The position numbers and the translations under genes were made by a program. DNA of 64,000 nt from Daejeonella oryzae DSM 19973 (lineage in GTDB: Bacteria > Bacteroidota > Bacteroidia > Sphingobacteriales > Sphingobacteriaceae). The DNA lies in NCBI RefSeq assembly GCF_000422945.1, contig NZ_AUHA01000002.1, positions 806,001 to 870,000 of the forward strand, in the 5' to 3' direction. Shown in pieces: positions 4,132 through 42,664 of the stretch. The notes under the pieces were generated by a model. The model made no database searches and was not told the DNA's origin. It saw only the letters and a list, made by a program, of their open reading frames with translations. Numbering within the stretch: position 1 is the stretch's first letter; the number at the start of each line of letters is the position of its first letter.

Positions 4132-4494
4132 TTAATTTTTAACGATGGTTAGTTCTACATTATTAGTCCCCTTTACTTTCATGGTCAAAGGATCAGAATC
4201 TTTTACAAACTGTCCGGTGTATTTAACTCCGTTCTCCGCTCCGCTGCTGAAGGTAAACTGGATGTCTAAATTATTGAATGAACCCGTAAATGTATTGCCA
4301 TCCTCATCGCCGGTAAAATCTCCTTTGCTTACATTGGTAGCAGTTGGCAAAAACTGAAATAAAGTTCCGCGTGAACTTGACCATAAATTAGAAAAATTGG
4401 GGAAAAACAGACCCGCTGCTCCTCCTCCATCTTTGCCGCAGCCTGTTAACAAAATAAATAACAGGCAGGCTTTTATTAAAAGTTTTGTTTTCAT
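4132..4494 (-). CDS. Small lipoprotein of unknown function (third gene of an envelope cassette)
   Basis: A 120-aa protein that starts MKTKLLIKACLLFILLTGC, a clear SPII signal with lipobox LTGC, so it should be lipidated at Cys19 or so. A Gly-rich linker (GKDGGGAAG) follows. The mature part is predicted to be mainly beta: it alternates polar and hydrophobic residues and ends in a tight strand pair (KVKGTNNVELTIVKN), reminiscent of lipocalin-like or META-like folds, but no family is recognised. It lies 13 bp downstream of the 322-aa gene on the same strand, so the two are probably co-transcribed. Function is not assigned. Confidence 0.65.
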   Translation of the reverse strand: MKTKLLIKACLLFILLTGCGKDGGGAAGLFFPNFSNLWSSSRGTLFQFLPTATNVSKGDFTGDEDGNTFTGSFNNLDIQFTFSSGAENGVKYTGQFVKDSDPLTMKVKGTNNVELTIVKN

Positions 4495-4507
4495 GATATG
4501 AGTTTTA

Positions 4508-5476
4508 TTAATTCTCTACTAAATCTGTATTTGTTAAGAGCGTAGTAAAACTTGCTATCCGCTCACCCAGACTATTTAACTTACGGCCTAAAGCTGCTGA
4601 GTGCTGGGATATATCCATTTCTAAAGCTTTCCCAAGATCCCGCTTCCGGGATTTGCTGGATTCTTTACTGTACTCATTTATGCGATCAAAAAAGGTGTAA
4701 TTAATTTCTAGCAAATATGGTTTATGGATTTCCTCAATTGAATAGTCAAGCAAACTTGAAAATTTTAAAGAAAGCTCTTTGCTCTTCCAATAGGTGTTAA
4801 TAGCCTGTTCATATGTACTTTTATTACTGTTCAGTAATTCAAAAATCTCGTTATAGCTTAAAATTGCTTCAGTAAATTGCTGTACGGCAGCACCATTTTC
4901 GGGATCTCTTTTTAAAGATGAAAAAGCATCGTTGGCATCCCGGGCTTCATTTAAATATTGATATAGCGCACTTGATATAAGGGGAAGAAATTCCATTCGT
5001 CCTTTTGCAAGCAATTTATCATCAATCTTAACCCTGCTACTTAGTAAAGAAACTATAGAATCATATCCTCTCCGGCTTTCTTCCTGCAGTTTCTTAATCA
5101 GCACCGCATCTGAACCTGCTTTTATCCTCGTCATTTCTCTCATCACTATCTTAACCGGATCGGGACCCGGTTTTGAAACATAAATATCTACAAATACTAA
5201 ATTGTCTTTGGGAAGATTTGCTCTTCCTTCCATCGGATATTCGATGATATATTGTTTTGGATTGGAACTTCCAATATTGGCAAAGGTGATTTGATTAGGA
5301 ATACTCAGGTTAATAATTCCCTGCGGATCTGTAGTAAGCTGCTGGCCATTTATCAGAAATTTAGAATTGGATAAAGCACTGTAATTAGAATAACGGATGC
5401 GGAATTTGTAGGAAGTAGTCTGAGCATTCGCCTCCAGCAAAATTAAATTTAAAAATATGATCAGATACTTAATCAT
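4508..5476 (-). CDS. Secreted protein of unknown function, N-terminal beta and C-terminal helical domain
   Basis: A 322-aa protein with a cleavable signal peptide (hydrophobic core 4-16, likely cleavage after ANA near residue 18). Residues 20-115 look like an Ig/carboxypeptidase-regulatory type beta domain: short strands with a default-value loop (LINGQQLTTDPQGIINL). From about residue 120 to the end it is almost entirely helical, rich in Ser, Leu, Lys and Glu, with several paired helices. No family is recognised. The upstream 276-aa gene ends 7 bp before this start and has a similar beta domain, so the two probably work together in the envelope. The 120-aa lipoprotein follows. Confidence 0.65.
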   Translation of the reverse strand: MIKYLIIFLNLILLEANAQTTSYKFRIRYSNYSALSNSKFLINGQQLTTDPQGIINLSIPNQITFANIGSSNPKQYIIEYPMEGRANLPKDNLVFVDIYVSKPGPDPVKIVMREMTRIKAGSDAVLIKKLQEESRRGYDSIVSLLSSRVKIDDKLLAKGRMEFLPLISSALYQYLNEARDANDAFSSLKRDPENGAAVQQFTEAILSYNEIFELLNSNKSTYEQAINTYWKSKELSLKFSSLLDYSIEEIHKPYLLEINYTFFDRINEYSKESSKSRKRDLGKALEMDISQHSAALGRKLNSLGERIASFTTLLTNTDLVEN

Positions 5477-17656: not shown

Positions 17657-17988
17657 CAACTGACTCTTTTTATGACCGTGTGCACCAAGTTGTGCGCTTA
17701 ATTCCAAGTGGAAGGATAACAACTTACGGTGCTATTGCTGCATACCTCGGATCTAAGGGTTCATCAAGAATGGTGGGCTACGCCATGAATAATTCATTTA
17801 CGGCAATCCCTCAGGTTCCGGCACACCGGGTTGTAAACAGACAGGGCTTACTCAGCGGGAAAGCTCATTTTGGCTCACCAACTCTAATGCAGCAATTACT
17901 GGAAAATGAGGGAATAAAAGTTATTGATGATAAAGTAGTCGATTTTAAAATTTTATTTTGGGACCCTGCTACAGAACTTGATTTCTGA
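17653..17988 (+). CDS. Alkyltransferase-like protein (MGMT family lacking the acceptor cysteine)
   Basis: A 111-aa protein that consists of the DNA-binding, C-terminal domain of O6-alkylguanine-DNA alkyltransferases: IPSGRITTYGAIAAYLG, then AHRVVNRQG. The alkyl-acceptor motif PCHR reads PAHR here, so the acceptor Cys is replaced by Ala and the protein cannot repair by alkyl transfer. Such ATL proteins bind O6-alkylguanine and recruit nucleotide excision repair. It starts at TTG 17653, overlapping the trmB stop (TTGA); no ATG is available before residue 46 or so. Downstream are an AhpD-like protein and tag, and the polymerase I gene. Confidence 0.9.
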   Translation: MTTDSFYDRVHQVVRLIPSGRITTYGAIAAYLGSKGSSRMVGYAMNNSFTAIPQVPAHRVVNRQGLLSGKAHFGSPTLMQQLLENEGIKVIDDKVVDFKILFWDPATELDF

Positions 17989-38004: not shown

Positions 38005-38661
38005 ATGTCTAGTAAAGCGATTTTAATTGGAGCTAGCGGACTTATTGGCAGTCATTTATTAGAATTATTGCTTGCAAGTTCAGATTTCTCTGAAGTCATT
38101 ACATTTTCAAGATCAAAATTACCTGTATCTGATAATAAATTAGAGGAGCATATTATTGATTTTGAAGAGCTTAATAAATATAAGGCATTAATTAAAGGAG
38201 ATGTAATATTTTCTGTTTTGGGTACTACAAAAAGCAAAACATCTAATACTGCTGATTACCGGAAAATTGATTTTGAATATCCTGTTGAGTTAGCAAAATT
38301 CGGTTTAGAAAATGGGGTTAAACAATTTCATATAGTAACTTCTTTAGGAGCCGATGATAAATCTTCAAATTCCTATCTGAAAATGAAAGGTGAACTCGAA
38401 TTAATACTTAAAAAGCTTAATTATCCATCTTTACATATTTATCAACCCTCTTATTTAGAGGGTGTTAGAAAAGATATCCGAATTTCTGATCGTATAATGC
38501 AGCCATTAATGAAATTTATTAATCCGCTGTTAAAAGGAAATTTAAAAAAATACAGGAGCATAAAGGCTTCTGAAGTGGCCAAAGCAATGATCAATCAGTC
38601 AGTTAAAGATTTATCAGGAACTTTTGTCTATACATCCAATAAAATAAAAGAATTAGTGTGA
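38005..38661 (+). CDS. NAD(P)-binding Rossmann-fold oxidoreductase (HTATIP2-like atypical SDR)
   Basis: A 218-aa protein. N-terminal AILIGASGLIGSHLLELLL is an atypical G-x-x-G-x-x-G nucleotide-binding loop; FSVLGTTKSKT, HIVTSLGADDKSSNSYLKMKGELE (with the YxxxK pair) and IYQPSYLEG are typical of the HTATIP2/atypical SDR a5 group. Probably an NADP-dependent oxidoreductase or sensor of unknown substrate. It overlaps the next gene, an ABC-F ATPase, by 4 bp (GTGA). Confidence 0.85.
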   Translation: MSSKAILIGASGLIGSHLLELLLASSDFSEVITFSRSKLPVSDNKLEEHIIDFEELNKYKALIKGDVIFSVLGTTKSKTSNTADYRKIDFEYPVELAKFGLENGVKQFHIVTSLGADDKSSNSYLKMKGELELILKKLNYPSLHIYQPSYLEGVRKDIRISDRIMQPLMKFINPLLKGNLKKYRSIKASEVAKAMINQSVKDLSGTFVYTSNKIKELV

Positions 38662-40511
38662 GTATTTTATCTACAGAACAATTAGGCCATGCATTTAATG
38701 ATGCCTGGCTATTTAATGATTTATATGTTGGCTTTGCCAAAGGCGAACGGGTGGCTTTGGTTGGTGTTAATGGCACAGGCAAATCAACTCTGTTAAGAAT
38801 TTTGTCAGGCTTGCTTTCCCCTACCGCCGGAAAGGTAGTTACTGAGAGGGATCTCCGAATAGGATATTTAGAGCAAGATCCCCAATTTAATAATCAGGTA
38901 ACAATAAGCGATTTCATCTATTCAATAGGAAATATCCAGCAGCAACTGATACGGAAATATGAAGAAGAGCTTGAAAAAGTTCCTCATAACGAAGAAGTAC
39001 TAAGCGAATTAATGGACGAGCTTAGCAACGAAAATGCCTGGGAATACGAATATGAAATTAAAACAATACTAGGAAGGCTCGGAATTCAGCATCTAGATCA
39101 GGAAATTTCGACACTTTCTGGCGGTCAGCGTAAAAGACTTGCTTTGGCAAAGCTTCTAATTGATGATCCTGATGTTTACATTCTGGATGAGCCGACTAAC
39201 CATCTGGATATTGAAACCATAGAGTGGCTCGAGAACTTTCTGACCACCGGGCAAAAAACAATTATTTTAGTAACTCATGATAGATATTTTTTGGATAATG
39301 TTTGCAGCCAGATAATAGAATTAGACAGAGGGAAGCTCAGCCCTTATAAGGGTAACTACAGTTATTATCTCGAAAGAAAAGCTGAGCAAAATGCTGCAGA
39401 TGACGCCTCTTTTGAAAAGAACAGTAACTTACTGAGACGAGAGCTAGAATGGATGAGAAGGCAACCTAAAGCCAGAACTACAAAATCCAAATCCAGAATT
39501 GATGCGTTTTACGATCTTGAAGATAAAACATCAGGGAGACAAGTAAAATCCAAATTAGAACTAAGCGTAAATGTTTCCCGACAAGGCAATAAAATACTTG
39601 AGTTGGAAAATGTAAGCAAAAGTTTTGATGGTAAAGTAATCATGCAAAATTTCAGTTACACCTTTAAAAAAGGTGATAGAATTGGTGTAGCAGGAAAAAA
39701 CGGTTCCGGAAAATCAACATTGTTAAATTTAATTACAGGCCTTTATAAGCCTGAGTCCGGAAAAATTAATTTGGGGGAAACTACTTCATTTGGATATTAC
39801 CGTCAGGGTGGTTTAGAATTTAATGATGACGACCGCGTAATAGATGTTGTTAAAAATGTAGCAGAGTATATTACAATGGCTGATGGTAAAAATCTTACTG
39901 CCGGTCAGGTTTTGACTCATTTCTTATTCCCTCCTGCTAAGCAGTACGGATATGTGAACAAGCTAAGCGGAGGCGAAAAAAAGAGGCTACAATTAATGCG
40001 GGTGCTTATGAAAAATCCAAATTTCATGATTCTCGATGAACCTACCAATGATTTAGATATAGATACATTAAATGTGCTTGAAGAATTCCTTTTGAATTTT
40101 CCAGGCGTTTTAATGCTTGTTTCACACGATAGATATCTTATAGACAGACTTACTGAGCAACTTTTCATATTTGAAGAGGGTGCAAATGTTAGAATCTATT
40201 CTGGCAATTACACAGACTATCGTTTTGAGCAGGAAGAATTAAAATCTATAAAAAAGGATGTAGCCAAAGTGGTCGAAACTGAAACTAGAAAGCCATCTAA
40301 AAAGTTAAGTTTTAAAGAGCAAAAGGAGTTATCTGATCTTGAAGAAGCCATTCAAATAGCTGAAGAAACTATAAACAATTTGACAATTCAACTTAATTCA
40401 GGATTAACCGATCATGATGAACTTAGAGCTTTAGCAACTAAAATAAAAGGTCTGAATTTAGAAATAGAGAATAAAACCAAACGCTGGCTCGAATTATCAG
40501 AACAATTATAA
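38658..40511 (+). CDS. uup: ABC-F family ATPase, Uup-like
   Basis: A 617-aa protein starting at GTG 38658, which overlaps the previous stop (GTGA). It contains two ABC cassettes in tandem without membrane domains: Walker A GVNGTGKSTLL and GKNGSGKSTLL, signatures LSGGQRKRLALAK and LSGGEKKRLQLMR, Walker B VYILDEPTNHLD and FMILDEPTNDLD, linked by a P-site tRNA-interaction motif-like linker (about 240-305). The C-terminal coiled coil (about 545-617) indicates Uup, implicated in resolving branched DNA and in ribosome function. A small membrane protein gene follows by 2 bp. Confidence 0.87.
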   Translation: MSILSTEQLGHAFNDAWLFNDLYVGFAKGERVALVGVNGTGKSTLLRILSGLLSPTAGKVVTERDLRIGYLEQDPQFNNQVTISDFIYSIGNIQQQLIRKYEEELEKVPHNEEVLSELMDELSNENAWEYEYEIKTILGRLGIQHLDQEISTLSGGQRKRLALAKLLIDDPDVYILDEPTNHLDIETIEWLENFLTTGQKTIILVTHDRYFLDNVCSQIIELDRGKLSPYKGNYSYYLERKAEQNAADDASFEKNSNLLRRELEWMRRQPKARTTKSKSRIDAFYDLEDKTSGRQVKSKLELSVNVSRQGNKILELENVSKSFDGKVIMQNFSYTFKKGDRIGVAGKNGSGKSTLLNLITGLYKPESGKINLGETTSFGYYRQGGLEFNDDDRVIDVVKNVAEYITMADGKNLTAGQVLTHFLFPPAKQYGYVNKLSGGEKKRLQLMRVLMKNPNFMILDEPTNDLDIDTLNVLEEFLLNFPGVLMLVSHDRYLIDRLTEQLFIFEEGANVRIYSGNYTDYRFEQEELKSIKKDVAKVVETETRKPSKKLSFKEQKELSDLEEAIQIAEETINNLTIQLNSGLTDHDELRALATKIKGLNLEIENKTKRWLELSEQL

Positions 40512-40512
40512 A

Positions 40513-40761
40513 ATGAAATTATCTGATATTATCGCCTCAGCAGGTGTAGGCTTATTGTTAATCGCATTCCTTTTAAATTTATATAAAGTACTTGATACTG
40601 AAAGCAAATTATATATGATCTTAAATATCGCAGGGGCAGGTCTTTGCGGAATTTCATCGTATATGATCCAATTCTACCCCTTCGTTATCTTAGAAGGAGT
40701 ATGGGTTGCTGTTGCGGCAGTATCGCTTTTAAAAAGTGTTTCACGTGAAACACAAAAATAA
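40513..40761 (+). CDS. Small membrane protein (CBU_0592 family)
   Basis: An 82-aa protein with three hydrophobic segments (about 7-25, 33-52 and 56-74). The pattern N-x-x-G-A-G-L-C-G and the later EGVWVAVAAVSLLK match the CBU_0592 family of uncharacterised membrane proteins. It lies 2 bp after uup. Remarkably, its last codons (SVSRETQ) contain the first ParB-binding-like palindrome at 40737-40752. Confidence 0.65.
   Translation: MKLSDIIASAGVGLLLIAFLLNLYKVLDTESKLYMILNIAGAGLCGISSYMIQFYPFVILEGVWVAVAAVSLLKSVSRETQK
40737..40752. other. parS site 1 (ParB binding), perfect consensus
   Basis: TGTTTCACGTGAAACA is a perfect match to the bacterial parS consensus TGTTNCACGTGAAACA, a 16-bp full palindrome. 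It overlaps the 3-prime end of the upstream small membrane gene. ParB spreads from such sites for chromosome partition. A second palindrome follows 24 bp later. Confidence 0.85.
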
Positions 40762-40776
40762 ACACACTTAATAATT

Positions 40777-40792
40777 CGTTCCACGTGGAACA
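40777..40792. other. parS site 2 (variant)
   Basis: CGTTCCACGTGGAACA carries a 14-bp palindrome, GTTCCACGTGGAAC, a parS-type sequence with one step different from the consensus (GTTCC/GGAAC arms instead of GTTTC/GAAAC). It lies 9 bp upstream of the mnmG start. Centre-to-centre distance from site 1 is 40 bp, close to four helical turns. A pair strengthens the ParB interpretation. Confidence 0.75.
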
Positions 40793-40801
40793 AACAATAT
40801 C

Positions 40802-42664
40802 ATGTTTAAAAAATATAACGTCATAGTAGTAGGTGCTGGTCACGCAGGTTGTGAGGCAGCAGCAGCAGCAGCAAACCTTGGATCATCCGTTTTACTTATT
40901 ACAATGAACATGGGGACAATAGCCCAAATGAGTTGTAATCCTGCAATGGGTGGAGTTGCAAAAGGACAAATTGTAAGAGAAATAGATGCTTTAGGAGGTT
41001 ATTCGGGAATAATTACTGATAAAACAACCATTCAATTTCGGATGTTAAACCGTTCAAAAGGACCTGCAATGTGGAGCCCGCGTGCTCAAAACGACAGAAT
41101 GCGTTTTGGTGAAGAATGGAGACTTATGCTAGAACAAACTCCGAACGTTGATTTTTGGCAGGATACTGTAGTGGATCTATTATTAAATGGGGATAAAGTC
41201 TGCGGCATCAAAACCTCTTTGGGAATTGAAATCCAGGCAGACTCAGTTATACTCACCAACGGGACATTTTTAAATGGAATCATTCATATAGGTGAGAAAA
41301 AATTTGGAGGTGGAAGAACCGGAGAAAAGTCCGCTACAGGTCTTACAGAAAAATTAGTTTCTTTAGGCTTTGAAGCGGGCCGTATGAAAACGGGAACCCC
41401 ACCACGCGTTGACGGAAGATCTCTTGATTATTCTAAAATGGAAGAACAATGGGGTGATCCGAATCCAGGGAAATTTTCATTCACTGATACAGCACTACCA
41501 ATCAAACAAAAATGCTGCTGGATTACATATACTAATTTAGCAGTACATGAAACATTAAAAGAAGGATTTGAAAAATCCCCGATGTTTACCGGCAGAATTA
41601 AAGGATTAGGTCCACGCTATTGTCCCTCAATTGAAGATAAAATTAATCGCTTTGCTGAGCGTGAACGTCATCAGATATTTGTAGAGCCTGAAGGCTGGGA
41701 TACCGTAGAAATATATGTTAATGGATTTTCAACTTCATTGCCGGAAGACGTACAGTATAAAGCAATAACTAAAATTGCAGGTTTTGAGAATGCTAAAATG
41801 TTCAGACCTGGTTACGCTATAGAATATGACTTCTTTCCACCTACTCAACTTGATTTAACGTTAGAAACCAAAAGAATCAAAAACCTTTTTCTGGCCGGTC
41901 AGATTAATGGAACCACAGGTTATGAAGAAGCAGCATGCCAGGGATTCATGGCAGGAATAAATGCACATCAAAAAATTAATGACCTTCATGAACTAATTTT
42001 AAAAAGATCAGAATCTTACATTGGAGTATTAATTGATGACCTGGTTACCAAAGGTACGGAAGAACCTTATAGGATGTTTACATCAAGAGCTGAACACAGA
42101 TTACTGCTAAGACAAGATAATGCTGATATTCGTTTAAGTCCTATTGGATTTGAATTGGGACTAATAACTGAAGAAAGATTAGCTAAAGTGAATGCAAAAG
42201 TTAACAACTCAGACAAAATAGTTTCGTATTTGAAGCAAAAAGCAGTTCAACCAGGACAAGTTAATCAAATGCTCGAAGAACTTGGTACTGCACCTATAAA
42301 TCAAAATGTTAAAATGTTTCAACTTATAACTAGGCCGCAAGTTACATTTGCCGACATGCGAAAATCTGATGTACCATTTGATGAATTACTAAATAAATTT
42401 GATCAGGAAACTATTGAACAAGCAGAAATTAAAGTGAAATATGAAAGCTACTTTGAAAAGGAACTGGAAATTGTGAACAAGATGAAACGTATGGAAAATC
42501 ATGAAATCAATCCTGAGTTTAATTATATAAATTTAGTTTCACTATCAAAAGAAGCACGTGAAAAGTTAATGAGAATTAAACCAAGAACATTAGGACAAGC
42601 ATCCAGAATTTCAGGTGTTTCGCCTTCAGATATTTCAGTTTTGATGGTGCATATGTCAAAATAA
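40802..42664 (+). CDS. mnmG: tRNA uridine-5-carboxymethylaminomethyl modification enzyme, FAD subunit
   Basis: A 620-aa protein. N-terminal FAD-binding [19 protein letters not shown], then [21 protein letters not shown], the GidA signatures [11 protein letters not shown] and [29 protein letters not shown] (catalytic Cys region), and the C-terminal helical region (about 450-620) for tRNA and MnmE contact. With MnmE it makes cmnm5U34 in tRNAs. mnmG is commonly placed near the chromosomal origin and parA-parB genes, matching the two parS sites just upstream. The usual neighbour rsmG is not adjacent. Confidence 0.97.

Follow-up and report, generated by a model that had tools for sequence, protein, structure and literature searches.

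The 64,000-nucleotide window analyzed here, the whole stretch C1:806001-870000 on the 1,587,645-base contig C1 of Daejeonella oryzae DSM 19973, contains two parS-like palindromes directly upstream of the gene mnmG (gidA). With a probability of about 0.9 we regard them as a ParB-parS centromere of the ordinary type, located close to the replication origin and kept beside mnmG in much of the class Bacteroidia, with parAB and usually dnaA located elsewhere. The sites, their rarity, their conservation and their position were observed directly. The assignment builds on the following features:

40737-40752, no strand assigned: parS site 1, TGTTTCACGTGAAACA, a palindrome with 0 mismatches to the parS consensus
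40777-40792, no strand assigned: parS site 2, the 16-mer CGTTCCACGTGGAACA with the 14-bp core GTTCCACGTGGAAC at 40778-40791
40802-42664, plus strand: mnmG (gidA), TIGR00136, 828 bits

The centres of the two sites lie at a distance of 40 bp, with 9 bases between site 2 and the mnmG ATG at 40802. An earlier note on this DNA had described two parS-like palindromes directly before mnmG, the first of them a perfect consensus match lying within the codons of a membrane protein gene. The coordinates, both distances, the location of site 1 in these codons and its match to the consensus were all confirmed. The note had also called the tight pair of one consensus and one variant site unusual, a view that did not hold. 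Site 2 deviates from the 16-bp consensus at 3/16 positions; its 14-bp core is nonetheless a perfect palindrome of the pattern GTTNCACGTGNAAC, and differences between the cores of both sites are confined to free N positions. The Bacillus form of the parS consensus has one free N. Tight pairs are moreover the norm in the family Sphingobacteriaceae, where 78/80 mnmG loci possess two or more upstream sites.

The draft genome, which is 99.48% complete and comprises 3,445,768 bases in 10 contigs, holds just two copies of the core GTTNCACGTGNAAC, both upstream of mnmG. Three further places are found with one mismatch; for a reversed control pattern, with no more than one mismatch tolerated, the number is 2. 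The base composition leads to an expectation of approximately 0.14 perfect cores per 3.45 Mb (own arithmetic), so that two perfect cores within 54 bp are not a chance observation. The looser scan of the window with up to 3 mismatches returned 2 matches compared to 0.37 expected; taken alone this test is weak because 2 or more matches were also reached in 6/100 shuffles.

Conservation of the sites beside mnmG

The core is present in 138/151 genomes of the family, and 99 of these 151 hold exactly two cores, compared to 17 matches of the reversed control in total (both our own counts of the table). An exact site occurs within 1 kb upstream of mnmG in all 80 named family loci, with less than 1 kb available in four. 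Two sites were counted in 63 loci, three in 13, four in 1, five in 1 and a single one in 2. The spacing between neighbouring sites is at most 60 bp in 71/96 cases, and the flanks of the sites are little conserved (the core being fixed by the search itself). For the 71 short spacings we calculated the helical phasing, which gave R values of 0.249, 0.215 and 0.161 at periods of 10, 10.5 and 11 bp with Rayleigh p values of approximately 0.01, 0.04 and 0.16. Since related genomes are not independent, no claim of phasing is made. All six small genomes sampled from genus g11 (G010, G033, G049, G060, G070 and G080; 1.3-2.0 Mb) lack the exact core, unlike most of the family.

A survey of the class found the core in 173/198 genomes and a pair with a 5-35 bp spacer in 21/198. 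We then considered 70 mnmG loci from 43 families of the class with flanks of up to approximately 2 kb, shorter at contig ends. These comprise the 30 best-scoring matches and 40 loci chosen by hand across families; the sample is not random, as 39 of the 40 hand-chosen genomes were already known to hold a site. Exact sites occur in the flanks of 58/70 loci, two or more in 51, and 34/43 families are covered, while the reversed control gave 0 matches. The sites lie on both sides of mnmG in 25 loci, only upstream in 20, only downstream in 13, and are absent in 12. They are concentrated close to the gene: 93/118 are no more than 150 bp away from one of its ends, compared to 8.6% for a uniform spread over the flanks.

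The association is also seen in the reverse direction. Loci retrieved by the site pattern (29) or by the pair pattern (21), which include the window itself once and genome G021 twice, contain mnmG in 48/50 cases, the remaining two being L009 and L161. For 22 further class genomes, chosen because both positions were listed, the nearest site is found 9-1000 bp from an mnmG end, in G250 inside the gene.

Over the phylum, the core occurs in 140/148 genomes, and exactly two cores in 100/148 (own count). Among 30 genomes of other classes, which are those with places given among 32 picked and all known to hold the core, 13 have neighbouring sites 1.88-2.09 kb apart (own arithmetic). This distance corresponds roughly to mnmG plus margins and suggests that sites may flank mnmG outside the class too.

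Two side observations concern the core itself. Genome G184 carries seven parS cores with a regular period of approximately 99 bp at C24:13203-13809, on a different contig from its mnmG sites; this array is perhaps situated on a mobile replicon. The exact core is absent in 5/5 sampled genomes of genus g67 (family f43). One of them, G230, nevertheless encodes a ParB, and 16 bp upstream of its mnmG starts GTTTCACATGAAAC, which deviates from the core by one mismatch; possibly the parS consensus has shifted here.

Segregation proteins and the position of the origin

The proteins that would read the sites were observed as well: a ParA-type ATPase, a ParB with parS-type residues and SMC are present. 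A ParB family search of the genome gave one match over the cut-off (184.8 bits, C1:168337-168870, minus strand) with the domains ParB_N, HTH_ParB and ParB_C. Directly before parB lies the gene of the ParA-type ATPase (L006 2155-2958, minus strand; AAA_31 230.8 bits, CbiA 89.2 bits), and a full-length SMC match was found on contig C2 (979 bits). If this ParB is aligned to Noc (7ng0), it has R at the position of the Noc Q and, 28 residues on, G at the position of the Noc R. According to PMC7383237, R173 and G201 (Caulobacter numbering) are conserved in ParB and correspond to Q158 and R186 in Noc; positions 179 and 184 are described as tolerant. The spacing of 28 residues matches that between Q158 and R186 of Noc. 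Judging by this alignment, the protein has the specificity residues of the parS type.

The GC (guanine-cytosine) skew on C1 was calculated from sampled sequence of 780,000 bases, window included. Its cumulative minimum lies at 815.5 kb. A two-level model places the sign change at C1:817 kb with block-bootstrap 95% limits of 767-853 kb, and the parS pair at 846.7 kb falls within these limits. With the gain statistic, 0/5000 block permutations showed as strong a step; with the difference of means, which allowed change points near the contig ends, 115/2000 were as large. The sampled skew suggests that the replication origin is located in or near the window.

Four other genomes, each assembled in one or two contigs, were sampled with 20 stretches of 20 kb; in three of them the skew switch is at or near the mnmG sites. 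It lies between the samples at 273 and 546 kb in G066, with sites at 354 kb inside this best-fit interval, and between 2520 and 2700 kb in G339, a member of another family, with sites at 2567 kb, again inside. For G007 the best fit is between the samples starting at 682 and 910 kb and the second-best at 910-1137 kb; the sites at 962 kb are just beyond the former and inside the latter.

Neither dnaA nor parAB marks this position. The dnaA gene is found at C1:1579309, 733 kb from the pair, and parAB lies 678 kb from it on the same contig, so that the usual, not required, proximity of parAB to parS and oriC is not seen here. In 6/7 genomes with both on one contig, dnaA is at least 0.36 Mb from the sites: besides the 733 kb of the present genome, approximately 1.0 Mb in G007, 0.75 Mb in G339, 0.88 Mb in G281, approximately 0.7 Mb in G316 (measured to the parS sites) and 0.36 Mb in G039. 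The exception is G016, where a mere 16 kb lies between dnaA (G016:C1:32-1423) and the mnmG-parS pair (17686-17723). In G066 the sites and dnaA are on different contigs. The distance of parB to the sites is approximately 1.1, 0.6, 0.9 and 0.3 Mb in G007, G066, G339 and G016, with the contigs of G007 and G066 taken as circular. The chromosome segregation centre near the origin, as proposed in the earlier note, is supported: with 2 copies per genome the palindrome is infrequent, a ParB is encoded, and the origin, going by the sampled skew, lies within the window or close to it. The suggested link to the positions of dnaA and parAB was not borne out, both being approximately 0.7 Mb away.

Studies of other species, among them PMC7053999, PMC8367383 and PMC7022226, have established that ParB nucleates, forms a CTP (cytidine triphosphate) clamp and spreads, that ParA drives movement and that SMC is loaded. 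The two palindromes are most likely parS sites and would make up the centromere of the chromosome studied here. By analogy to those bacteria, ParB, the gene of which lies 678 kb off, would bind each site as a dimer, close into a CTP-dependent clamp and slide to the neighbouring DNA, so that one partition complex would form around mnmG. ParA would move this complex and SMC would probably be loaded at it, with the effect that origins separate first once they have been copied. A pair of sites at a distance of 40 bp would offer two points of loading at a single location. The origin region, and not the function of mnmG, would dictate where the sites are; mnmG may be an old neighbour that stayed with parS when parAB, and usually dnaA, ended up elsewhere.

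Several observations weigh against a parS centromere kept at an origin beside mnmG. No exact core is found in 13/151 family genomes, and 12/70 class loci are without an exact site near mnmG, 9 of these 12 genomes having exact sites elsewhere. The best skew estimate, based on sampled sequence, is approximately 30 kb from the pair, and 116/2000 block permutations also put the change point within 32 kb of it. In G258, a genome without an exact site, the skew is weak; the origin fits 4335-4590 or 4080-4335 kb, mnmG is located at 3698 kb, and none of the three best fits places the origin at mnmG. Finally, the exact oriC was not located: boxes of the DnaA motif TTWTNCACA are unclustered (73 in 784,392 bases, with no 500-bp stretch holding three). 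In the 80 family mnmG loci, which total 602,560 bases, TTATCCACA was counted 4 times.

Neighbouring genes and other explanations

Two genes precede mnmG on the same strand, and the three probably represent a single transcription unit:

38658-40511, plus strand: ABC-F family ATPase gene, ending 1 bp upstream of the membrane protein gene
40513-40761, plus strand: gene of a CBU_0592-family small membrane protein of 82 amino acids (NF047864, 35.2 bits, cut-off 25)

Site 1 is read in frame in the terminal codons of the latter gene and encodes the C-terminal SVSRET. A recognisable CBU_0592 gene lies upstream in 46/80 family loci, and in 46/46 the first site starts inside its coding end. A V[PS]R[GE]T tail is encoded by the parS frame in 43/46; the other 3 use a different frame with the stop codon within parS.

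A more far-reaching proposal would treat mnmG and parS as one conserved origin unit of the phylum, with a centromere defined by the mnmG address and independent of dnaA and parAB. The sites would then be kept within tens of bases of either mnmG end because ParB loading also acts on the expression of mnmG, or on an oriC in or next to the gene. We consider this proposal speculative and rather unlikely.

It is unlikely that the sites serve mainly as operators, by which a DNA-binding protein, be it ParB or another, controls the transcription of mnmG from just upstream. The nearest exact site starts 17-101 bp before the ATG in 80/80 family loci and 23-30 bp before it in 55 (own count), which would suit an operator, and effects of ParB on genes near parS are described in PMC7022226. 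However, the sequence matches the parS consensus exactly, and the first site starts in upstream coding sequence in the 46/80 family loci named above. The placement in the class, with sites only downstream of mnmG in 13/70 loci and flanking it in 25/70, also speaks against operators: as sites occur on either side of the gene, control of its promoter is unlikely to be their main role.

It is highly improbable that the palindromes act in the RNA as hairpins of the mnmG leader, with a stem GUUCC/GGAAC and a loop ACGU. Palindromes close to the ATG are able to form such short hairpins (by reasoning), but sites are found downstream of the gene as well. At the variable positions 4 and 11 of 176 family sites, C-G occurs 128 times, T-A 19, C-A 15 and T-G 14 times. 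As C-A, which breaks the pairing, is as common as T-G, symmetric recognition of DNA is favoured over an RNA hairpin, and on the basis of this symmetric variation the hairpin was rejected.

Chance, or an unrelated CACGTG motif, is practically negligible as an explanation: the window shuffles at 3 mismatches are compatible with it, but the expected number of perfect cores and the family genomes with exactly two true cores, as set against the reversed control, speak against it, and the place conserved in all 80 family mnmG loci refutes it.

Comparison with known systems

That parS exists and is biased towards the origin has long been known, and parS itself is not new here; the conserved mnmG address is the interesting part. 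Livny et al. 2007 reportedly surveyed parS and may already list these sites. The usual landmark for a replication origin is dnaA. If the pattern holds, mnmG together with parS would be a simple sequence landmark by which to find the centromere and the origin across much of Bacteroidia, in draft and metagenome assemblies too. It can also be asked what keeps parS within tens of bases of a single tRNA-modification gene when the proteins reading it are encoded at distant loci. A conserved mnmG address apart from parAB and usually dnaA may be unreported: a limited literature search over titles and abstract starts found no link of parS to mnmG or gidA in Bacteroidota, and neither gene name occurs in the main text of PMC10197239, PMC13342612 and PMC8653839.

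The system resembles chromosomal ParABS: the palindrome is the same, its copies are few and close to the skew origin, and the genome encodes SMC and one ParB with parS-type residues, with a ParA-type ATPase beside it. It differs in that there are only two sites, 40 bp apart and beside mnmG. Noc with its NBS sites is characterized by many sites genome-wide and the residues Q and R; here ParB has R and G and only two parS cores are found, the NBS sequence itself not having been searched for.

The gidA(mnmG)-gidB-parA-parB cluster at the origin of many other bacteria likewise has mnmG beside the origin, with parS close by. The present arrangement differs from it since parAB lies outside, with parS and mnmG still together.

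PMC10197239, which writes the parS consensus as TGTTTCACGTGAAACA, combined parS clusters, mapped by Hi-C, and the GC skew to locate the origins of gut bacteria, among them the Bacteroidetes Bacteroides caecimuris and Muribaculum intestinale, and the origin was not always at dnaA. It reports no known condensin in its two Bacteroidetes, whereas the present genome encodes a full-length SMC. Common to that study and to this one is that the origin is placed by parS clusters together with GC skew and need not lie at dnaA.
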